Below are positions 1,403 to 36,600 of a stretch of 54,549 bases of DNA, one piece after another. Position numbers and translations under genes: made by a program. Source of the DNA: a virus. Location: positions 1 through 54,549 of IMG/VR virus record IMGVR_UViG_3300020193_000029, one strand, 5' to 3'. The notes beneath the pieces are model-generated. The model worked only from the letters and a program-made list of their open reading frames with translations. It was not told the origin of the DNA and did not search any database. Positions within the stretch are counted from its first letter, which is position 1; each line of letters starts with the position of its first letter.

Positions 1403-1719
1403 GTACTGTAATCACTTGGTCTGTCACCGCGATGGACTGCTACCCCGAAGCCGACGATCATCAAGACGTTGTGTTCAACGTGCATTGGACTTGCGCTGGC
1501 GTGGACGACACCTACACGGGCAGCGTCTATAGCACTTGCGGTGTTCCCGCTCCGAGCGGTTCGTTCACCCCGTATGCTGACCTCACGCAGGATCAAGTCC
1601 TTGGCTGGATTTGGGCGAACGGCGTGGACAAGCAAAGCGCAGAGGCAGCGGTTGAGCAGCAGATCGCCAATGCCAAGAACCCGCCTGTGGTCACGCCGCC
1701 GTTGCCGTGGGTTGCGTAG
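1399..1719 (+). CDS. Conserved small phage protein, DUF7936-like (tentative)
   Basis: 106 aa, starting MSTVITWSVTAMDCYP and ending in a helical segment (LTQDQVLGWIWANG..). The pattern of a beta-rich N-terminal half with TGSVYSTCG, then a helix beginning FTPYADLTQDQ, is typical of a short conserved family found beside tail-fibre genes; I tentatively link it to DUF7936. The gene overlaps its upstream neighbour by 4 nt and ends in TAGTG, whose GTG starts the next gene. No enzymatic motif is visible. Confidence 0.65.
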   Translation: MSTVITWSVTAMDCYPEADDHQDVVFNVHWTCAGVDDTYTGSVYSTCGVPAPSGSFTPYADLTQDQVLGWIWANGVDKQSAEAAVEQQIANAKNPPVVTPPLPWVA

Positions 1720-1997
1720 TGACCGCCAACACCGTCTTCTTGCTGATCTTCGCAGTGCTTCAGGTGTTAGACATCTGGACGACGTTGACAGCACTCAAGA
1801 TGGGCCATCGGGAAATGAACCCGGTGCTGGCAAAAGCGTTTAACCACGCCGAGCCGCTGGTAGTCATGGTCGTCATCAAACTCGCCGGGGTCTTTGCCTT
1901 GTGGTGGGCAGAGATGTACTGGCTGACGGGCTTGATGTGTGCGATGTATTTGTGGGTGGTGAATAACAATTTGGATGTGATTCAGAGAAAGAAGTGA
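1719..1997 (+). CDS. Small multi-pass membrane protein (DUF5658-like)
   Basis: Translation most likely begins at the GTG (1719) that overlaps the previous stop, giving about 92 aa. Two to three hydrophobic segments are visible: TVFLLIFAVLQVLDIWTTL near the N terminus, and a long one around VVMVVIKLAGVFALWWAEMYWL. The pattern LDIWTTLTALKMGHREMNPV resembles DUF5658 membrane proteins. It lies directly before the lysis genes, so an auxiliary lysis or membrane role is possible but not shown. Confidence 0.65.
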   Translation: MTANTVFLLIFAVLQVLDIWTTLTALKMGHREMNPVLAKAFNHAEPLVVMVVIKLAGVFALWWAEMYWLTGLMCAMYLWVVNNNLDVIQRKK

Positions 1998-2239
1998 TGG
2001 AAGTTCAAGTGTTATTCAACATCATCGTAGGCGTAGCGGGGTTGTTTGGGGGGTGGATACTCAACAACATCTCCCGCTCGATTGAGCGATTAGACGATAA
2101 TGTGCGTGAAATGCCAATGGTGTATGTGATGCAAGACTCTTATAGCCGTGACCAAACGCGTTATGCGCGGGACATTGATGAAATTAAAGATATGCTCGGC
2201 AAAATCTTTGACAAGTTGGATAGCAAGGCTGACAAATAA
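1997..2239 (+). CDS. Small membrane-anchored coiled-coil protein
   Basis: The ATG at 1997 overlaps the preceding TGA; a GTG three bases earlier is the alternative. About 80 aa, with an N-terminal hydrophobic segment (FNIIVGVAGLFGGWIL) followed by a charged helical tail with heptad character (IDEIKDMLGKIFDKLDSK). This one-membrane-helix plus coiled-coil layout is common immediately upstream of phage holins. It may be an accessory lysis protein; no specific family is claimed. Confidence 0.6.
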   Translation: MEVQVLFNIIVGVAGLFGGWILNNISRSIERLDDNVREMPMVYVMQDSYSRDQTRYARDIDEIKDMLGKIFDKLDSKADK

Positions 2240-2289
2240 ACGACACAGCCGACATTGACCAAGAGCGACGATACGGTGAGGGCTAAAAA

Positions 2290-2775
2290 ATGATGACACT
2301 TATATCCACTTTTCTGTCGTTTCTGGCAGGGGGCTTGCCTAAGATCCTTTCGATTTTCCAAGATCGTCAGGACAAGAAGCACGAACTTGCGCTTGTCGCG
2401 GCACAAAAGGAACGTGAGTTAGCCCTTGCTGAACGCGGTTTCCTTGCTCAGGCCAAGGTGGAGGAGATCAAACTAGAGCAGATCCAGACCGAAACTGAGG
2501 GCGAGGAACGTCAAGCCCTCTACGCCCATGACGTTGAAATCGGCAAAGGCGCATCCCAGTGGATGATCAATCTCAGAGCCAGTGTGCGTCCGGTTGTCAC
2601 CTACATCTTTGTATTGGAACTGGTGGCGCTCAACATCGCTGGAGTCTGGTATGCGTACACCACCGGCATCCCCTTTGCGATAGCCATGGAAAACGTCTTC
2701 TCAGATGATGAGATGCTGATCCTGTCCTCAATCGTCGCTTTTTGGTTTGGAACACAGGCTTTTGGAAAGAAGTGA
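2290..2775 (+). CDS. Putative holin (GTA_holin_3TM-like)
   Basis: 161 aa with an N-terminal hydrophobic segment (LISTFLSFLAGGLPKILSIF), a long charged coiled coil rich in K/E/Q (about residues 25-75), and two C-terminal hydrophobic segments (VVTYIFVLELVALNIAGVWY and MLILSSIVAFWFGTQAF). This is the layout of the three-segment holin family first seen in gene transfer agents. It would make lesions in the inner membrane and release or activate the endolysin. Its 3' end overlaps the endolysin start, the usual lysis-cassette arrangement. Confidence comes from topology plus context. Confidence 0.75.
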   Translation: MMTLISTFLSFLAGGLPKILSIFQDRQDKKHELALVAAQKERELALAERGFLAQAKVEEIKLEQIQTETEGEERQALYAHDVEIGKGASQWMINLRASVRPVVTYIFVLELVALNIAGVWYAYTTGIPFAIAMENVFSDDEMLILSSIVAFWFGTQAFGKK

Positions 2776-3260
2776 ACGTTAGCCTCGCAGCCATCCAAAT
2801 GATCAAGCACCACGAAGGGGTGAGGACTAAGCCTTACCGCTGTCCGGCGCTGCTTTGGACGGTGGGCGTGGGCCATGTCATCGACCCCTCTCACATCGCG
2901 GTGAAGCATGATGAGCGTAAAAACCTACCGATACCCGCAGGCTGGGATCGCGTCCTCACCATGGGAGAGGTGGACGATCTTCTGGCTAAAGACCTTATGC
3001 GCTTTGAGCGCGGTGTTCTTAGAAACTGCCCTAGTGCTGTTGGTCGTCAAGGAGTCTTCGATGCTCTCGTCTCTTTTTCGTTCAATGTCGGGCTAGGCAA
3101 CCTACAACGCTCTACGCTGCGAATGAAGACCAACCGTGGAGAGTTTGAACAAGCCGCAGACCAGTTTCTGAAGTGGACTAAAGCAGGCGGTCGAGTACTT
3201 CCCGGTCTGGTTAAACGCCGCAAAGATGAACGGGCGCTGTATCTGTCAGGAGTGACGTAA
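2772..3260 (+). CDS. Endolysin, GH24 lysozyme (muramidase)
   Basis: The catalytic triad pattern E-8aa-(D/C)-5aa-T is exact: Glu in HHEGVR (about residue 15), Cys in YRCP (24) and Thr in WTVGVGH (30), numbered from the GTG at 2772. It would hydrolyse the MurNAc-GlcNAc bond of peptidoglycan. The usual C-terminal lysozyme helices are present (FDALVSFSFNVGLGNL, LVKRRKDERALYL). The GTG overlaps the holin stop (GTGA) with GGAAAGAA just upstream; an ATG at 2742 is the alternative start. No signal-anchor segment is seen, so export depends on the holin. Cys replaces the T4-type Asp, which is common in phage GH24 enzymes. Confidence 0.9.
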   Translation: MNVSLAAIQMIKHHEGVRTKPYRCPALLWTVGVGHVIDPSHIAVKHDERKNLPIPAGWDRVLTMGEVDDLLAKDLMRFERGVLRNCPSAVGRQGVFDALVSFSFNVGLGNLQRSTLRMKTNRGEFEQAADQFLKWTKAGGRVLPGLVKRRKDERALYLSGVT

Positions 3261-3328
3261 TGTTTACAGTGATAACATTTATTAATTTAAAGAATGAACA
3301 CACGTTGTATTTATTTAGGACTGCCTAA
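3260..3328 (+). CDS. Possible 22-codon mini-ORF after endolysin
   Basis: An ATG overlapping the endolysin stop (TAATG) opens a 22-aa frame starting MFTVITFINLK. The region is much more AT-rich than its neighbours. It may be a leader peptide, or only the AT-rich spacer before the stabilisation gene. Support is limited to the stop/start overlap. Confidence 0.2.
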   Translation: MFTVITFINLKNEHTLYLFRTA

Positions 3329-3367
3329 TCATAAGCAATTTTATAACACCAGTTTGACGGAGGATGG

Positions 3368-5197
3368 ATGGCGATAAGTAAGCCAAAATTTCAACCTGGT
3401 GTGAACAAAGAAGGCACCGAGTACACTGCTGATAGCGGGTGGTTTGATTCCGATAAAGTGCGTTTTCGGCAAGGTAGGCCAGAAAAGATCGGTGGCTGGC
3501 AGAAGTATCTATCTTCTAATTTTCTTGGAACATGTCGATCGATATTTGATTGGGCAACCAATGCATTTACTACTTACTTAAGTTTTGGCACAAACCTTAA
3601 GTTCTATGTCAACGAAGGAAATTCTATCTACGACATTACGCCTATTCGGAAGACTGTTAATCCGATGGCAAACAATCCGTTTACAAGTGGTTCTGCGGGA
3701 TCTGTAGAGGTAACCGTAACGGATACTGCCCACGGAGCAGTGGTCAACGACTTTGTAACCTTTAGCGGAGCCTCTGGTTTTGATGGCATACCAGCAGGCG
3801 ATCTCAATAAAGAACATCAGATTACTCAGATCATTAATGCCAACAGCTACAAGATTGTAGTAGCTACGCCGTGTACTGCGGGTGCGATCTCTGGTGGTGG
3901 CGCGGTAGTTATTGCGAATTACCAAATCAATGTAGGTTTGGATGTATATGTTCCAAGCACTGGGTGGGGAACTGGATCATGGGGTTCTGGCCCTTGGGGT
4001 TCTGCAACAGCGATTACATCCTCTAATCAGCTAAGGCTTTGGTCGCAAGATAACTATGGCAATGACCTGATCTTTAATGTTCGTGGTGGCGGAGTTTATT
4101 TCTGGGATCAAAGTTCTGGAACTTCTACAAGGGGTGTGGAATTGACAACGGTGAGCGGTGCTTCTGATGCGCCAGTGATTGCCACACAGATCATGGTAAG
4201 CGAAAACTCCGCACAAGTATTGGCCTTCGGCTGTAATGCAATAGGCTCATCGACAATTGATCCCCTGCTCGTTAGATGGTCTAAATCAGATAGCGCAGTA
4301 GACTGGACACCGACATCCACTAACGATGCAGGCGGTCAGATTCTAGGCTCTGGATCGTTCATCGTTACTGCCCAAAAGACCAAGCAGGAAGTGCTGATCT
4401 TTACCGATGCCGGCGTTTACAGCATGAGGTACGTAGGGTCTCCTTTTGTTTATTCATTTACCTTGGTTTCTGATTACCATGGCTGTATTTCCCCGAACTG
4501 CGTAGCTGATGCCAATGGACTTGTTTTCTTCATGGACGAAGGGAACTTCTATGTCTACAACGGCGCAGTTCAGACGCTAGATTGCACAGTCCTAAACTAT
4601 GTATTTTCAGACATTAACTTAGGGCAGGCATACAAAATCTTTGCCGCGACAAACTCAAAGTTCTCTGAGGTGACCTGGTATTACCCATCGCAGAACTCCC
4701 AAGAGATCGACCGATATGTATCCTACAACTACAAGGAAAACATCTGGTACATCGGCACGTTAGATCGAACGGCTTACTATGATTCAGCACTAAAGAACTT
4801 CCCAATTGCTGCTGGCGAAAGCAACGGATCTAACTACTTGTATCAACATGAAGTTGGATACGATGCTGATGGAAGTGCGTTATCTGCTTATATTGAATCA
4901 GGCAGTCTTGAGCTTGATCCTGGACAGAAGTTTATGTTCATGTCTAGGGTCATTCCTGACTTCAAGTTCCAAGGCACAACAAGCTCTAATATGATTAGCC
5001 TAGTTATTAAGGGCAAGGATTACCCGTTGCAAACCTTAAACGTGAAGTCAACCTCTACGGTAGGATCTTCCACAGACCAGGTGTTTGTTCGAAACCGGAT
5101 GCGTCAGGCAGCAGTGCGAGTCGAAAGTTCTGGTCTTGGATATGGATGGAGACTGGGTGATCTTCGCTTTGATCTTCGAACGGATGGGCAACGCTAA
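3368..5197 (+). CDS. Packaged-DNA stabilisation / tail hub protein, P22 gp10-like
   Basis: 609 aa. The N-terminal signature FQPGVNKEGTEY..SGWFDSDKVRFR..PEKIGGW is the hallmark of the Phage_stabilise (P22 gp10-type) family in podoviruses. The remainder is beta-rich, with propeller-like repeats of aromatic and Gly residues. In P22, gp10 lies between the portal/gp4 ring and the needle and stops packaged DNA leaking. The ribosome site is strong (GGAGG four bases before ATG). It begins a rightward run of overlapping genes ending in the large internal proteins. It lies about 17 kb (over the window ends) from the gp4-like adaptor gene, but in the same late transcription direction. Confidence 0.75.
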   Translation: MAISKPKFQPGVNKEGTEYTADSGWFDSDKVRFRQGRPEKIGGWQKYLSSNFLGTCRSIFDWATNAFTTYLSFGTNLKFYVNEGNSIYDITPIRKTVNPMANNPFTSGSAGSVEVTVTDTAHGAVVNDFVTFSGASGFDGIPAGDLNKEHQITQIINANSYKIVVATPCTAGAISGGGAVVIANYQINVGLDVYVPSTGWGTGSWGSGPWGSATAITSSNQLRLWSQDNYGNDLIFNVRGGGVYFWDQSSGTSTRGVELTTVSGASDAPVIATQIMVSENSAQVLAFGCNAIGSSTIDPLLVRWSKSDSAVDWTPTSTNDAGGQILGSGSFIVTAQKTKQEVLIFTDAGVYSMRYVGSPFVYSFTLVSDYHGCISPNCVADANGLVFFMDEGNFYVYNGAVQTLDCTVLNYVFSDINLGQAYKIFAATNSKFSEVTWYYPSQNSQEIDRYVSYNYKENIWYIGTLDRTAYYDSALKNFPIAAGESNGSNYLYQHEVGYDADGSALSAYIESGSLELDPGQKFMFMSRVIPDFKFQGTTSSNMISLVIKGKDYPLQTLNVKSTSTVGSSTDQVFVRNRMRQAAVRVESSGLGYGWRLGDLRFDLRTDGQR

Positions 5198-24156: not shown

Positions 24157-25929
24157 ATGTTTCCAGTTACAAATGACCATGAGTTGATCATCGAGGCAGT
24201 TCGTTCTCTCGACAATGGACAACACAAGGTTTCCTGTCCATACTGTCAGCACACTCGTCAGAAACATCGCCATGACCGTCCTTTATCGGTCGAGGTGACT
24301 AGTCAGTCCGTTCGTTGGAAATGTTGGCATTGTGGGGTAGAAGGCGGTATGGATAGATTTCATAACAATGTTATGCCATTTCGTCAGACGAGGGCAGTCA
24401 AACAACCGAAGCCAGAGATTGTCCTGGCAGATCTCGATGAACAAATCAAGGCAGATGGCTTGGCATATCTCAACTCGCGTGGCATCCCGTCAGACATCGC
24501 TGCCGATAAGTGTGTCTTTGGCAGTTGGGGTTTTGCAGCGACAGGCTCTCGTCCTGCGATTGGTTTTCCATACAAGGAAAACGGCAAGATCTTTGCGGTC
24601 AAGTGGCGAAGTGCAGATAGCGAAAAGCATTTTAGCCAACAAGCGGTCTGCTCAAGCTTCTGGAACATCGAGAACGCAGATCCTTCTAAGCCGCTACTCA
24701 TCTGCGAAGGTGAGATTGATGCGCTGACCTGGATGACTGTTGGAGTAGATGCCAATATTGTCAGTGTACCGAATGGCGCACCGCAGCGAGTTAAGGACGG
24801 GGCAATTGATCCGGTTGAAGATCGTCGATTTGCCTATGTATGGGAATCCGAAGAATTTCTGAGCAAGACTCAGCGCATCATGTTCTCGCCTGATCTTGAT
24901 GCAGCAGGCGAGGCGCTGATCGAGGAACTTTCAAGACGCATTGGTAAAGCTAAGTGCTGGCGCATCGAGCTGCCATGCAAGGACGCTAACGAAACCTTTC
25001 TGGCTGGGGGCAGGGATGTCCTGAAAGCAGCATTCGATTCGGCAAGACCCATCCCGCTTGCCGGTCTTTACGATGCGGAGCATTACTCGCAGCGATTCGA
25101 GAACCTTTATAACGAGGGACATCACAAAGGTATCGACACAGGCATTGCTAGTCTCGATGAGATTATGAGTATTTCTGAATCCATGTTGACTGTGGTTACG
25201 GGATTCCCTGGGCATGGCAAGTCAGATCTCATCGATCAGATCTGTATCAATGCTGCTGAAAACCATGGATGGAAGACGGTTTTTTGTAGTTTTGAGAAGC
25301 CTCCGCATATGCACATGGCGCAACTCGCTTCGAAGGTTATGGGTAAGCCCTTCTTTGAGGGTAAGACGCCACGTATGACTCCAGAGGAGCGGGATCAGGC
25401 AAAACGATGGATTAACGATAACTTCGTGTTCATGGACTACATGGCGGGTGCGCCAGCCGACATCCAAGGCATCCTCGATTTTGCTCGAGCGGCAGTTATG
25501 CGAATGGGTGTTCGGATTCTGGTTATCGATCCGTATAATTTTATCGAGATTAATTACAAGGATCGTCTTGAGACAGACGCGATTAACGAAATGCTGACTA
25601 AGGTTCAGCAGTTCGCGAAGTCATCGGGTGTCCATGTGTTCTTCATTGCTCACCCTGCCAAGCCAGCTGACCGAAGTCAAAAAGTGGTGACGGGTCTTGA
25701 TGTTGCAAAGTCAATGGCATGGTTTGCCAAGGCAGATATCGGATTGACGGTTGTTAGAACAGAGGATGGCCCTGAAGCACACATTTGGAAAGCACGATGG
25801 CAATGGCTTGGTAAAAACGGCATGGCTCATCTATTGTTTGACCTTCCAAGTTCAAGATGGTCTGATAGGAGGAATGATTCCGAAAAGATAGAGCATGACA
25901 ATTTTGACTGGAGCCTCGGAGAAAACTAG
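24157..25929 (+). CDS. Primase-helicase, T7 gp4 / Twinkle-like
   Basis: 590 aa with both halves of a fused primase-helicase. A zinc-binding domain (C27-x2-C30 ... C56-x2-C59, CPYC and CWHC) is followed by TOPRIM motifs EGEIDAL (about 185) and SPDLDAAG (about 244-251). The RecA-like DnaB-type helicase core follows, with Walker A GFPGHGKS (349-356), CSFEKPP, and Walker B ILVIDPYNF with HPAKP downstream. It would synthesise primers and unwind DNA at the fork. GGAG precedes the ATG. No DNA polymerase gene was found in the window, so a host polymerase is the likely partner. Confidence 0.92.
   Translation: MFPVTNDHELIIEAVRSLDNGQHKVSCPYCQHTRQKHRHDRPLSVEVTSQSVRWKCWHCGVEGGMDRFHNNVMPFRQTRAVKQPKPEIVLADLDEQIKADGLAYLNSRGIPSDIAADKCVFGSWGFAATGSRPAIGFPYKENGKIFAVKWRSADSEKHFSQQAVCSSFWNIENADPSKPLLICEGEIDALTWMTVGVDANIVSVPNGAPQRVKDGAIDPVEDRRFAYVWESEEFLSKTQRIMFSPDLDAAGEALIEELSRRIGKAKCWRIELPCKDANETFLAGGRDVLKAAFDSARPIPLAGLYDAEHYSQRFENLYNEGHHKGIDTGIASLDEIMSISESMLTVVTGFPGHGKSDLIDQICINAAENHGWKTVFCSFEKPPHMHMAQLASKVMGKPFFEGKTPRMTPEERDQAKRWINDNFVFMDYMAGAPADIQGILDFARAAVMRMGVRILVIDPYNFIEINYKDRLETDAINEMLTKVQQFAKSSGVHVFFIAHPAKPADRSQKVVTGLDVAKSMAWFAKADIGLTVVRTEDGPEAHIWKARWQWLGKNGMAHLLFDLPSSRWSDRRNDSEKIEHDNFDWSLGEN
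24361..24375. promoter_or_regulatory. 15-bp palindrome, copy 1 (A-centred), inside primase gene
   Basis: CATAACAATGTTATG: the same 7-bp arms (CATAACA/TGTTATG) as the intergenic copies at 34-39 kb, but with an A centre. It encodes HNNVM within the primase zinc-domain region. An exact match of 14 fixed bases is not expected by chance in a window this size. Confidence 0.65.
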
Positions 25930-29954: not shown

Positions 29955-30395
29955 TCAGTTCTTCCTATTGATCGAACTGTTAATGGCTTTGAATCTTGTC
30001 CACGGGTAAACCACTTTGTAGATATCTTCAGAAAGCATCCCATCGAAGCGATTCGATAAGAGCATCCCGACAGGTAGTTTCATCCCGAATGCAACAAGAT
30101 CGTTATTCACATCGAAGTCACAGGCGATGTTCCAAATAACAAGATCGTTGTTGGTCACGTAGATGTGACCCTTGAGGACGTGGAGAATCTCGTGCATGAC
30201 AACCGCATCGAGTTCATCATCGTCCAAGGTCTTGATGTAATCGGAAGCATAGAAAAGATACTGCCCGTTAGTCGATATCGTTTGAGTCATAACAATGTTA
30301 TGAGCGATACGAAGAACGGGCAGCATTTCTTTTATCCCTGTGAACCTTGAGAATAGCCTGTCAAGTGATTGGCGTATTCTCTTTTTGGACATCAT
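29955..30395 (-). CDS. Putative metallopeptidase-like protein (DUF2201 N-terminal-like)
   Basis: About 146 aa from the ATG at 30395 (GGGGAACTG upstream); an ATG at 30326 with AGGGA is an alternative. The zinc-binding motif H-E-I-L-H-x4-H (HEILHVLKGH) is followed by WNIACDFDVNNDLVAFGMKL and LLSNRFDGMLSEDIYKVV. This matches the N-terminal domain of VWA-associated DUF2201 proteins, but no VWA domain is present here or next door. It may be an active metalloprotease or a degenerate one. A palindrome copy lies within the gene. Confidence 0.7.
   Translation of the reverse strand: MMSKKRIRQSLDRLFSRFTGIKEMLPVLRIAHNIVMTQTISTNGQYLFYASDYIKTLDDDELDAVVMHEILHVLKGHIYVTNNDLVIWNIACDFDVNNDLVAFGMKLPVGMLLSNRFDGMLSEDIYKVVYPWTRFKAINSSINRKN
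30288..30302. promoter_or_regulatory. 15-bp palindrome, copy 2 (A/T-centred), inside metallopeptidase-like gene
   Basis: CATAACAATGTTATG, identical to copy 1. On the coding strand it encodes HNIVM. It lies about 100 nt inside the gene, near the alternative start at 30326, so it could act on an internal translation start. Confidence 0.65.
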
Positions 30396-30603
30396 CAGTT
30401 CCCCAGTCGAGAGGCTTGCCCTCACAGAGCAAGTTGTAATCAAACTCAAGGCTGCTCACCATGCGTTTGTGATAGGCGATCTTGGCTCTGATCTCGTAGC
30501 TGAGAAGTAGAGCCTGTCTCATCGCATCAGGAAGTTCAGCAAACTCTTTAGCGAGTCTTTGTTCCTGCTCTTCTTGCTGCTTGTTGAATTCATCGGCGCG
30601 CAT
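30361..30603 (-). CDS. Small charged helical protein, 80 aa
   Basis: GGAGTGAAGAAAA precedes the ATG. MRADEFNKQQEEQEQRLAKE opens a long coiled coil; the rest is RQALLLSYEIRAKIAYHKRM and an acidic tail. It overlaps its upstream gene by 14 nt and the metallopeptidase start by 35 nt. Family not recognised. Confidence 0.6.
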   Translation of the reverse strand: MRADEFNKQQEEQEQRLAKEFAELPDAMRQALLLSYEIRAKIAYHKRMVSSLEFDYNLLCEGKPLDWGTDDVQKENTPIT

Positions 30604-32793: not shown

Positions 32794-32983
32794 ACACTCT
32801 CTCCCTCTCCTTTACCTCAATTTTTTGCATCATCGCCAGCATGGCGATTCGCATGGTTTCTTCTGGCGACTTGTTCGCCAGAATCTTTAGCCACGCCTCC
32901 TCATATGAGTTCGCATCGACCATCTCAATGCGAACGCTTTTCTCATGCTTGTATGTGACGTAAAACTTTTTAACGCTGATCAT
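32786..32983 (-). CDS. Small alpha/beta protein, 65 aa
   Basis: The ATG at 32983 gives MISVKKFYVTYKHEKSVRIE, then MVDANSYEEAWLKILANKSP and a helical end. The pattern of two strands and a helix (FYVTY..EKSVRIEMVDANSYEEAW) resembles small DUF-type phage adaptors. In-frame ATGs at 32992 and 33019 are alternatives. It overlaps the upstream gene by 14 nt. Confidence 0.6.
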   Translation of the reverse strand: MISVKKFYVTYKHEKSVRIEMVDANSYEEAWLKILANKSPEETMRIAMLAMMQKIEVKERERVYA

Positions 32984-33338
32984 AAATTCCATCCCGTGCA
33001 TTACGCACCACGGTGGCAACGTCGAGCCACTCTATATCGCTTTGCAGCGCACGAAGTGGCACAGATACATCGCATGAGTCGCCCTCAGAGGTTGTCCCAA
33101 GGACAAGCCCTCGACCGCTTAACGGGGTGAGTATCCAACTAGGCTTGAAAAATGGCGCGAGTTCGCCTTTTATTAGCCCTTCGTCATCGATGAAGATCGA
33201 GTGCCGCCCACCGGGGAATCCGACCACATCGAAATTTGTGCAGTCATTTCCAATGATCTTAGAAATGCTACGCCAGTCACCGTCGTAATCAACTTCGTTG
33301 ATCGACTTCGTAAACGGATCTATCAAGTACGCTTTCAT
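32970..33338 (-). CDS. DUF3846-like phage protein
   Basis: 122 aa. MKAYLIDPFTKSINEVDYDG, then ISKIIGNDCTNFDVVGFPGG and HSIFIDDEGLIKGELAPFF, with PLSGRGLVLGTTSEGD, matches the order (K-A-Y-L-I-D-P, FDVV, DDEGL.K, L.GRGLVLG) of DUF3846-type proteins found in phages and plasmids. The fold is probably alpha/beta; function unknown. It is the nearest downstream neighbour of the glutamine-amidotransferase-like gene, with 50 nt between. Confidence 0.7.
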   Translation of the reverse strand: MKAYLIDPFTKSINEVDYDGDWRSISKIIGNDCTNFDVVGFPGGRHSIFIDDEGLIKGELAPFFKPSWILTPLSGRGLVLGTTSEGDSCDVSVPLRALQSDIEWLDVATVVRNARDGIYDQR

Positions 33339-33388: not shown

Positions 33389-34327
33389 TTAAACGGAAGG
33401 AATGTTGAACGGCGAGAGTCCCTCCTTGTCGAAGAGATCATCGATCCATTGAGTGGCAGTGACCGGATTATCAGCAACGATCTCGGCTACTGCTTCTTCA
33501 TCCTCGTAGCAATAGGCAAGCAGAGCCGATGCTTTCCACGGCGCGTCGATTACCCACTGCTCGAGATTGTTGTTGAGCCAAGAGTTGTAGGCGGCTTTCA
33601 CAATCGGTCTTATCGATTGCTTGTTGTCCACCTTGATCGTCGCGCCTGTCGACTTTGCTCCCTGAAGATAACTCCTGTCGTAACTGTAGCCCGTGTCCCA
33701 GTCGTAGGAGTCGTATTCGGTGTACCAGCGATTGCCGTAGTAGCCGCCAGCGGCAGCGGTCTTGACACCGAAGCGATGCGGCGACCATGCGTAGGTGTTA
33801 GACAGCCATGCGTGGTTGTACTCGATACCGCTCTGGCGATTGATGATGACAGCATCACCGTTGCCGGTCATGAAACCGAACTTGTTGCCGTTGCCGATGA
33901 GACTGCCCAAGAACGCCTGATAGGACGGGTCGAGGATACGGTCAGGCTCGTAAGCAAGTACGGGTTGGATGATGTGCCGAATGAAGTGCCAGGTATCGGA
34001 CTTGGTTTTGTCGCTGTCGTTGCCCGATGAGAGGATGCCGTTGTGAGACATCCAAATACGGCTTGTTACGAAGTAGGGGTGGCAGTTCTCAAGATCGATG
34101 TCGCCGTGGGTCTGCATACGGGCGTGCCAGATGCAGTCACGACCGTCGGCGTATTGGAGATAGAACTCGATGAAGTCTGCGGCACTGACGGGCAGCAGTT
34201 TCTTGACGATCACATGACCGGCTTCGGCATACATGATGCCAAGACCGTCTTTGTTCTTGCTGTAAACGTCAGTCAAGAACTCGTCAGAGAAGTTGGTTTC
34301 TGAGGTTTGTTGTACTAACAGACACAT
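33389..34327 (-). CDS. Class-II glutamine-amidotransferase-like (Ntn hydrolase) protein
   Basis: 312 aa. Class-II amidotransferase landmarks appear in order: nucleophile Cys at position 2 (MCLLV), DGLG (27-30), W-H-A-R (67-70) with T73, NCHPYFV (81-87), SHNG (94-97) and SDT (110-112). Processing of Met1 would expose Cys2 as the N-terminal nucleophile that releases ammonia from glutamine or hydrolyses a related amide. The C-terminal half (about 190-312) is Tyr/Trp-rich and unrecognised. AAGGAGTAAAGACC precedes the ATG, with a palindrome copy just upstream. The next gene encodes an amidoligase, a known pairing for this family. Confidence 0.82.
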   Translation of the reverse strand: MCLLVQQTSETNFSDEFLTDVYSKNKDGLGIMYAEAGHVIVKKLLPVSAADFIEFYLQYADGRDCIWHARMQTHGDIDLENCHPYFVTSRIWMSHNGILSSGNDSDKTKSDTWHFIRHIIQPVLAYEPDRILDPSYQAFLGSLIGNGNKFGFMTGNGDAVIINRQSGIEYNHAWLSNTYAWSPHRFGVKTAAAGGYYGNRWYTEYDSYDWDTGYSYDRSYLQGAKSTGATIKVDNKQSIRPIVKAAYNSWLNNNLEQWVIDAPWKASALLAYCYEDEEAVAEIVADNPVTATQWIDDLFDKEGLSPFNIPSV

Positions 34328-34345
34328 GGTCTTTACTCCTTGGTT

Positions 34346-34360
34346 GATAACAGTGTTATG
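34346..34360. promoter_or_regulatory. 15-bp palindrome, copy 3 (one mismatch), upstream of amidotransferase-like gene
   Basis: GATAACAGTGTTATG, differing from the consensus only at its first base. On the minus strand it lies 19-33 nt before the ATG of the amidotransferase-like gene and just after the amidoligase stop codon, immediately upstream of the AAGGAGTAAAGACC ribosome site. Confidence 0.7.
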
Positions 34361-34365
34361 AAATA

Positions 34366-35766
34366 TCAGGCGGCATCGGACATATCGATGCGACCTGACA
34401 TCCGGCTATTGAAGTACTTTCGGAATATCTTTGTCTCCTCTGGTAGATTGCTTTGACAGAATGATAGGAATTGTGGCGATGTGAGGTCGCGCAGACTTGC
34501 GACAGAAGGTCGCGTGTACTCGATGATGGCGTTACAGAACTCGACGGCAGCGATGACTGCTTCGTACTTGAGACTGCCTCTGAACATTCTGAACTCGATG
34601 GTTTTTCGGTTGGTGAGATTGACTGCCTCGTATCGATCACCACTGCGGCAGTCCTTGACCTTCTTGGATTTGATCTGACAGAAGCCAGAGGCGTAGCGTC
34701 TTGCGACGCTGCGGATAAACATCTCGTTTCTGGGATCGTTGATGAAGGAGACGATCTTGCCGATCTGTAGGTCAGTCATGTTGGATCGACTGACATGGAC
34801 ATGGAGTCCGCAGGAGGTGGTGTTGTGGGATTTGAGGTTGCGGGTAAGGCTCTTATCTTCGAGGAACTTGAAGAGTTCACGTTGGGCAGGCAAGGACATG
34901 GGCTGCGTGATCATCTCGAAGCCATGACTTAGCGACCCGTCATTCTCGAAGAACATCCTATCGAGAAGTTTGGGGTCATTGACGCGATCGCTGATAGCCT
35001 TGGCGTTCGCCTGCCTGTCGCCGTCTATGTTCTCGACCTCGAGTTCTACGCCGAAGAATCGGTTGTGCTTAATCGTCCAATCGTCTCTGATGAAACTGAA
35101 CTTGTCTTTGGATGAGTGGTAATTGCGGATGACGCGATCCCGGCGTCTGTAGTCTTGGTGATAGAAGATACCTTCTTCTTCATCTTCCTCAAAGTCGCCG
35201 TTCTCGTAACTGACAACGACCTCGTTGCCGAAATTGTCTATCGCATTGACGGCGTAGTCTCTGTGAATGTAAGTGTCTTCGTATTCCGACCAGCGGTAAT
35301 GCCTCTCACGACAACTCTCGCAGATGGCGTTGTCGTAGGAATAGGACATATCGTCTGATGGGAATGACTCATCGCATGAAGAACATTGTATGATGTTGTA
35401 GTGATCGTTGATGAAGTCCATTGTCTCGTCGAAGTCGTCTGCGTTCGAGTTAACGTGCATCACGCAACTGTCATAGTTGCTTCTGCGGCATAGCGCGTGA
35501 AAGAGTGCGGTGAAGTAGGTGGAGTTGTTCTCCTCGCACTGCTCTGCGATGACTCGCAGGATAGTACTCGATTGAGAGTAAGTGAGTATCTTGTCAGACG
35601 TTGCGTACCGTGCAGTGTTCACCCTTGTCGCACAATGGTCAAAGAAGTTTCGAGCGAGGGCAGGACGTCTTAGCGAGTAATCGTAGAAGCGTTTGCCGAA
35701 TGCTAGTAGTAACAGATGGTCGTTTGCCAATCGACGTGCGATAGGCAGTTCAAAGAAATGAGCCAT
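34366..35766 (-). CDS. Putative amidoligase (GS-fold, Amidoligase_2-like) with N-terminal zinc-binding region
   Basis: 466 aa. A treble-clef-like C128-x2-C131 ... C149-x2-C152 lies in the middle of the N-terminal half, followed by an acidic region. The C-terminal half carries the amidoligase signatures: FGVELEVE (238-245), NDGS (275-278) with GFEMITQP, CGLHVHVS (319-326), and TIEFRMFRGS (389-398). These enzymes share the glutamine-synthetase fold and are predicted to ligate an amine or amino acid to a carboxylate using ATP. In the family description they occur next to glutamine-amidotransferase-like thiol peptidases, exactly as here. The target (a peptide, cell-wall precursor or protein tail) is unknown. 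Confidence 0.82.
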   Translation of the reverse strand: MAHFFELPIARRLANDHLLLLAFGKRFYDYSLRRPALARNFFDHCATRVNTARYATSDKILTYSQSSTILRVIAEQCEENNSTYFTALFHALCRRSNYDSCVMHVNSNADDFDETMDFINDHYNIIQCSSCDESFPSDDMSYSYDNAICESCRERHYRWSEYEDTYIHRDYAVNAIDNFGNEVVVSYENGDFEEDEEEGIFYHQDYRRRDRVIRNYHSSKDKFSFIRDDWTIKHNRFFGVELEVENIDGDRQANAKAISDRVNDPKLLDRMFFENDGSLSHGFEMITQPMSLPAQRELFKFLEDKSLTRNLKSHNTTSCGLHVHVSRSNMTDLQIGKIVSFINDPRNEMFIRSVARRYASGFCQIKSKKVKDCRSGDRYEAVNLTNRKTIEFRMFRGSLKYEAVIAAVEFCNAIIEYTRPSVASLRDLTSPQFLSFCQSNLPEETKIFRKYFNSRMSGRIDMSDAA

Positions 35767-35780
35767 TGTCTTTACCTCTT

Positions 35781-35795
35781 CATAACAGTGTTATG
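35781..35795. promoter_or_regulatory. 15-bp palindrome, copy 4, upstream of amidoligase gene
   Basis: CATAACAGTGTTATG, perfect arms. On the minus strand it is followed by AAGAGGTAAAGACA and the amidoligase ATG at 35766, the same leader layout as copies 3 and 5. Confidence 0.8.
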
Positions 35796-36372: not shown

Positions 36373-36600
36373 TTAACCCTCCTTCCTTTTATGTTCAGTG
36401 CAGCCAAAGTCAGGGCGGGTAAACAAAGCGGCAAACCATTCCTCATTGTCTTTCACATAGAACTTGCTGGGTATCTCCACCACGTTTCCGTTTTCATTTG
36501 TCTCCCAAAACCTGACAACCTTGCGGCAGGTGCCTAGGTCTGAGTTGACCGTCCATCTCCCCCAATATTTGCAGGTGCTGCAAGTGATATTGCCAACCAT
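36373..36600 (-). CDS. Small zinc-binding-type protein, 75 aa
   Basis: Cysteines in MVGNITCSTCKYWGRWT, GTCRK and FGCTEH give a C-x2-C ... C ... C site typical of small phage proteins that start CxxCKYW. AAGGAGTAAAGACT precedes the ATG, with a palindrome copy upstream, as for the amidoligase and amidotransferase-like genes. It may be a nucleic-acid-binding or host-interaction protein. Confidence 0.65.
   Translation of the reverse strand: MVGNITCSTCKYWGRWTVNSDLGTCRKVVRFWETNENGNVVEIPSKFYVKDNEEWFAALFTRPDFGCTEHKRKEG

Follow-up and report, generated by a model that had tools for sequence, protein, structure and literature searches.

An amidoligase and a class-II amidotransferase-like protein form a recurrent two-gene pair in phages and bacterial genomes

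The window analysed here is the whole stretch of 54,549 bases of an IMG/VR virus record. It comes from a tailed freshwater phage, whose terminase, portal and head genes lie on the right. The terminase is ~55% identical to those of Pelagibacter phages, e.g. HTVC027P, yet the window has a GC content of 49%. We focus on two genes open on the minus strand and separated by 38 nt. The upstream one (34366-35766, minus strand) encodes an amidoligase of the glutamine-synthetase superfamily (AL, 466 aa), with a catalytic core at about residues 236-460. The downstream one (33389-34327, minus strand) encodes a protein of 312 aa that starts with Met1-Cys2 and has a predicted class-II glutamine amidotransferase fold (GAT). 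The adjacent, leftward pair is as the initial annotation had described it. To the left of the pair lie genes for a Sak-type annealing protein, an exonuclease and a primase/helicase. The next gene after GAT (32970-33338, minus strand) encodes a DUF3846 protein of 122 aa (PF12957, E=1.1e-6, 29.2 bits against a cut-off of 27.5). The same leftward gene block includes, at 29955-30449 (minus strand), a putative metallopeptidase (DUF2201_N / M48-like). A role in defence was checked against the PADLOC models, which gave zero matches for AL, GAT or the DUF3846 protein.

The similarity of the two leaders, also pointed out earlier, is in fact identity over a 14-mer (CATAACACTGTTAT) placed 15-19 nt ahead of each start codon. 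Directly upstream of the ribosome-binding site one finds the palindrome ATAACACTGTTAT, both for AL (35782-35794) and for GAT (34347-34359). This perfect 13-bp palindrome, ATAACA-N-TGTTAT, has 8 copies in the window, starting at positions 24362, 30289, 34347, 35782, 36616, 37464, 37560 and 38905. Allowing at most two mismatches, the 14-mer has 16 matches (a site counts once per strand), whereas shuffled sequence would give 0.2. Three palindromes stand 15-19 nt before an ATG, those of GAT, of AL and of an ORF at 36373-36600 (minus strand), and a strong sigma70-like promoter at 37538-37510 (minus strand) lies between two others. Close relatives have 7-10 copies, more distant AL-GAT phages have none, and a reversed-pattern control gave zero in all of them. 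We take the palindrome for the likely operator of a phage regulon specific to the lineage.

The motifs that had suggested a glutamine-synthetase-fold amidoligase (FGVELEVE, NDGS, CGLHVHVS and TIEFRMFRGS) are all present in AL, and the protein matches PF12224 (Amidoligase_2) with E=1.2e-9 and 38.8 bits, above the curated Pfam cut-off of 22. Its AF2 model (pLDDT 83.8, pTM 0.56) retrieves YbdK, glutamine synthetase and Dop/PafA (the Pup ligase/depupylase) from the PDB with Foldseek probability 1.0. Whole-chain TM-scores of these matches are low (~0.3), for which the extra N-terminal half of AL is probably responsible. The active site is intact: E241, E243, E284, H322, H324, R357, N383, E391 and R393 are unchanged in 104/104 non-redundant homologues, and the predicted metal- and ATP-binding Glu, His and Arg residues are conserved, as expected of Amidoligase_2. 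AL is an Amidoligase_2 protein with a predicted glutamine-synthetase fold, for which ATP-dependent amide-bond formation is the putative activity. A sequence search found no solved structure for its amidoligase family, and we found no substrate for the family in the literature searched.

A profile search had been proposed for both proteins, and only AL passes it. GAT scores E=0.001 with GATase_4 and E=0.038 with GATase_6, both under the cut-off (18.5 bits against 23 in the GATase_4/6 profile test); the GATase_4 score is slightly the higher of the two, and several relatives score best with GATase_6. The GAT of a Clostridia relative, L148, passes the cut-off (53.4 against 27). Since the GAT of the window falls below the Pfam cut-off, we call it class-II GATase-like by fold and residues. 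The structural comparison suggested at the outset was more telling: just as AL leads to glutamine synthetase, the AF2 model of GAT (pLDDT 76.5) leads to EgtC (4zfl) and GlmS (3ooj/1xff) with Foldseek probability 1.0, EgtC being as close as GlmS. Top matches, in the range 0.9-1.0, include PurF and EgtC with its natural substrate. The MC, HAR, NCHP, HNG and SDT motifs of the initial annotation are there, with the fold deciding the class, and the central ones align with H-x-R-x-x-THG and HNG of GlmS. GAT keeps the glutamine-pocket signature of ammonia donors. M1, C2, G30, H68, R70, T73, H83, P84, H95 and N96 are unchanged in 104/104 pairs and G97 in 103/104, so that the N-terminal Cys nucleophile and the Arg/Asn-Gly glutamine pocket are both found; D111 is kept in only 68/104, at a place where the alignment slips between subfamilies. 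GAT is a protein of predicted class-II GATase (Ntn-hydrolase) fold, with putative glutamine hydrolysis and ammonia transfer. It shares fold and catalytic layout with EgtC and the glutaminase domain of GlmS; unlike GlmS it has no isomerase domain and has an extra helical tail (about residues 236-300, 33428-33622, minus strand), delimited by AF2 confidence and secondary structure and preceded by a disordered linker (~192-234). The tail is conserved among phage relatives, but W258 is gapped in 46/104 pairs.

AL and GAT are nearly inseparable. A profile scan of IMG/VR gave at least 557 AL relatives, and among the best 80, inspected for neighbours, 79 have GAT directly downstream on the same strand, mostly less than 50 nt away in phages. 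The contig of the remaining one ends before the GAT position. GTDB genomes contain 524 AL relatives, and 74 of the best 80 have GAT directly or almost directly downstream, again on the same strand. Among the other six, three have no room on the contig, two lack GAT, and one (L148) has a single frame. This is the co-occurrence that the initial annotation had wished to see surveyed. The two proteins also diverge together, since their distance matrices correlate at r=0.81 over the 104 non-redundant pairs that we used for conservation and distances (0.80 in viruses, 0.94 in genomes). At the 16 loci with a terminase, the AL-GAT correlation (0.88) exceeds AL-TerL (0.81) and GAT-TerL (0.77), a modest difference. 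Values of dN/dS, mostly 0.1-0.3 for AL and for GAT, indicate purifying selection on both. One might argue from the existence of ALs without GAT that these are unrelated metabolic genes brought together by chance. We find this hardly credible: such constant adjacency across divergent phages and bacteria, together with correlated divergence, contradicts it. A match to an amidoligase profile, compatible active sites and co-occurrence are all observed, the reverse of the three outcomes first named as refuting the pair.

The single frame of L148 (positions 1674-3845 of a Clostridia MAG contig) joins AL and GAT over 723 aa. We did not rely on it as a fusion. The Met-Cys start of GAT and a GGAGG ribosome-binding site persist within the frame, which makes independent initiation equally likely; the single frame may be read-through.

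A third gene travelling with the pair was also sought, and there is no general one. No third gene is obligatory, and none is found beyond a minority of the non-redundant viral loci: terminase, as phage backbone, is counted in 19/54, and DUF932, DUF6876 and DUF3846 occur in minorities. DUF960 and resolvase are each found at about half of the Clostridia-dominated genomic loci. Within the flanks examined, DUF3846 is near the pair in 16/107 viral and 6/80 cellular relatives, and is an accessory neighbour rather than an obligatory one. It also directly follows the pair in L009, L022, L023 and some Clostridia, and is otherwise scattered. Most of the GTDB loci come from Clostridia, Ruminococcus among them; the others include Polynucleobacter, Bacteroidetes and Bdellovibrio records. 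Clostridia copies adjoin DUF960 and resolvase genes and, at some loci, integrase, relaxase or TraG-like genes. With recombination and conjugation genes alongside, these copies have the appearance of cargo of mobile elements. In Ruminococcus flavefaciens (contigs L126, L134, L136, L153, L163, L178, L189 and others) a genome holds several copies of AL, and GAT follows most of them; DUF960 and resolvase genes are adjacent, and integrase, relaxase or TraG-like genes are present at some loci. The pair is apparently multi-copy mobile cargo in this species.

The association of AL with GAT is already published. PMC10580990 reports such pairs for Marvin and for OM43 phages, places them at the core of the phiEco32 module, and cites Iyer et al. 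2009 for the amidoligase-amidotransferase module of phiEco32 (gp77-gp86) and LUZ24 (gp16-gp22). In the literature we searched, which did not extend to the original 2009/2012 papers, we did not find the two-gene scale, the recombination and conjugation setting in Clostridia or the zinc-module pattern described below, and we claim no priority for them. Like the window, phiEco32 and LUZ24 have AL beside a class-II GAT, with both folds. Unlike it, they add a COOH-NH2 ligase, an ATP-grasp ligase and a gamma-glutamyl cyclotransferase (GGCT), and carry a C-x2-C module on the GAT tail. GGCT (PF06094) and COOH-NH2 ligase (PF14395) are absent from the window and from 27 related or comparable phages, and are present in the controls phiEco32 and LUZ24; a general, not family-specific, scan of the window ORFs found no ATP-grasp ligase. 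Hence the window holds a stripped-down form of the known arrangement and should not be classed as a phiEco32-type module. Among public phages, the AL+GAT arrangement is found in the window, MW202733, MEP401/402, Tesla, Laroye and Ottawa, and the larger sets with COOH-NH2 ligase and ATP-grasp in phiEco32, LUZ24 and PA11. Marvin-cluster mycobacteriophages and the OM43 phages MEP401/402 resemble the window in having a two-gene unit in the same order with the C-x2-C module on AL; they differ in belonging to other phage lineages, with roughly 22-28% identity in full-length alignments. AL occurs without detected GAT in C. difficile phages, a Microcoleus phage, and Porphyromonas and Heliusvirales phages. 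It occurs with GGCT in Geobacillus phage GR1, Bacillus phage 035JT001 and Clostridium clostridioforme prophages (PMC11318856 for the latter). These systems share a PF12224-type ligase with the window and, unlike it, are devoid of the C-x2-C module, GR1 and 035JT001 having no GAT found near AL.

The known hosts of such phages differ widely, yet they have peptidoglycan. The pair might modify the cell envelope and block superinfection, as a phiEco32-like system reduced to its two core enzymes. PMC10580990 and PMC11318856 cite such a proposal for AL+GAT phages, and PMC11945000 speaks of a 'peptidoglycan modification module'. But this is an older proposal, made for the larger phiEco32 gene set. The absence of GGCT and COOH-NH2 ligase speaks against extending it to the window and its 27 companions, and the pair has no accompanying envelope-directed gene. 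We consider it unlikely in this form. It is a claim about the target, compatible with either of the mechanisms discussed below, and both peptidoglycan and protein are plausible targets.

The C-x2-C region had been taken for an insert in the amidoligase. It actually lies N-terminal to the catalytic core, the two pairs (C128-x2-C131 and C149-x2-C152; 35311-35385, minus strand) being ~85 residues ahead of the start of the core near residue 236. They make up a zinc-type, LIM- or treble-clef-like module, which the cysteines suggest would bind zinc. Three of the four cysteines were tabulated over the non-redundant homologues: C128 is kept in 101/104, C149 in 100/104 and C152 in 102/104. The Clostridia relative L148 has a Pfam LIM match just under the cut-off. 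The module changes place among lineages. It is on AL in the window, MW202733, MEP402, a Bifidobacterium phage, Clostridia and Polynucleobacter, and on the GAT tail in phiEco32, LUZ24, PA11, MW202697 and a Rhizobium phage; in Tesla, of the Marvin cluster, each partner has zinc-type motifs. Five GAT-bearing lineages (Laroye, Ottawa, Vibrio 1.293, L018 and C75C1) are without it, as are 8/8 of the GAT-less ALs examined. The module, on AL or on the GAT tail, is thus found in 10/15 GAT-bearing and 0/8 GAT-less lineages (Fisher p=0.003, for hand-picked and phylogenetically confounded lineages). Since the lineages are not independent and zinc binding is read from cysteines, this pattern is a lead rather than a proof that the module couples the enzymes or brings them to a common substrate. 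It offers a specific and cheap hypothesis on how AL and GAT are coupled.

What does the pair do? Amidation of some component of the host cell is, in our view, its probable role. Bipartite amidation is the simplest mechanism that fits both active sites and the strict pairing. GAT would hydrolyse glutamine at its N-terminal Cys2 and release ammonia, while the glutamine-synthetase-type active site of AL would activate a carboxylate as an acyl phosphate and join it with this ammonia to give a carboxamide. The ammonia would pass from one subunit to the other, and the zinc-type module, on AL here and on the GAT tail elsewhere, would hold the enzymes together or hold both on a shared large substrate. 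The substrate would most plausibly be a carboxylate of a host peptide or protein, and we infer that the pair is made early in infection. Taken as a whole, one such ATP- and glutamine-dependent enzyme is our tentative preference, to which we grant somewhat less than an even chance. Near-constant adjacency, correlated divergence, invariant active sites and purifying selection on both genes speak for it, as do the glutamine-pocket signature of GAT, the relatives that score best with GATase_6 and the distribution of the zinc-type module. The closest folds of AL, the carboxylate-amine ligases YbdK, glutamine synthetase and PafA/Dop, also count for amide formation, and there is a precedent in PMC12783734, where ammonia drawn from glutamine was proposed for phage ligases that contain a glutamine-hydrolysing domain. 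Against the bipartite enzyme, GAT matches EgtC, a gamma-glutamyl hydrolase, equally well as GlmS; ALs also occur with GGCT replacing GAT or with no detected GAT; and the zinc correlation is confounded by phylogeny, comes from hand-picked lineages and fails in five of them. Furthermore, we know of no glutamine-synthetase-fold enzyme that takes ammonia from a partner glutaminase. In the initial annotation, one partner was proposed to make the amide link and the other to provide ammonia or take off the added group. Its observation is confirmed; its interpretation is partly supported, namely in both family assignments, the functional pairing and this division of labour.

The main rival is a gamma-glutamyl ligase/hydrolase pair. 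AL may load an amine with a gamma-glutamyl (or similar) group that the EgtC-like GAT may later cleave off, with GGCT substituting in systems that lack GAT. Such a cycle would be comparable to the protect-and-deprotect steps of PuuA-PuuD or BtrJ-BtrG. The rival draws on EgtC with its natural substrate among the top matches of GAT, on the slightly higher GATase_4 score in the window and on the glutamate ligases, such as YbdK, among the closest folds of AL. It also draws on the ALs whose partner is GGCT rather than GAT (GR1, Bacillus 035JT001, Clostridium prophages PMC11318856) and on phage C75C1, where GAT and a GGCT-like domain share a polypeptide close to AL. Yet the window and the 27 related or comparable phages are without GGCT, the relatives score best with GATase_6 rather than GATase_4, and the neighbourhood of the pair shows no pathway for a product or an acceptor. 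Moreover, GAT and GGCT are not simply interchangeable, since they occur together in phiEco32 and in LUZ24. We regard this rival as rather unlikely, though a serious competitor. Both amidation and a ligase/hydrolase cycle need the same gamma-glutamyl pocket, and sequence alone cannot separate them.

The zinc-type module could also bind DNA, and phage amide ligases, some with a glutamine-hydrolysing domain, act on 5-carboxymethylcytosine (PMC12783734). One could imagine that the pair amidates a carboxylated base. The analogy with CmoX-CmoY extends to a phage ATP-dependent amide ligase; it breaks down in that this ligase is of the asparagine-synthetase type, CmoY being an asparagine-synthetase homologue of a different fold, and in that the system needs a DNA carboxymethyltransferase. 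PF00145, the C5-methyltransferase-type family to which such an enzyme would belong, is absent from the window, and among the families searched we found no C5 or N6/N4 DNA methyltransferase in the window or in 24 IMG/VR relatives. With no maker of a carboxyl handle found in these families, a DNA target is disfavoured, and we hold hypermodification to be very improbable.

Bipartite amidation may have a wider reach. AL and GAT could be a two-subunit glutamine-dependent enzyme amidating proteins or peptides, kept together or recruited by a mobile zinc module on either partner. Phages as well as integrative or conjugative elements would use it, in several bacterial phyla, as a general host-manipulation device. 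This extension is speculative and we think it improbable as it stands. AL has more than 500 relatives in each of two collections (IMG/VR and GTDB), and the two-gene layout is minimal and portable. A minimal pair, free of the extra enzymes of the phiEco32 module, allows a clean test of the joint action of AL and GAT.

Two minor observations concern GAT homologues. In phage C75C1 (OQ984151; L222, 6699-7595) a protein annotated as 'gamma-glutamyl cyclotransferase' has a class-II GAT domain at its N-terminus (MCLII..., profile E=6e-20), after which comes a GGCT-like domain (VAVYGTLKWGYGNH...). It is a GAT-GGCT fusion ~0.9 kb downstream of the amidoligase gene, and its reading as GGCT only is wrong. 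In two related contigs (L087, 4960-6618; L089, 5293-7041), GAT homologues have long low-complexity C-terminal repeats of the QEQPAQEQ / AEQEAAEQ kind.
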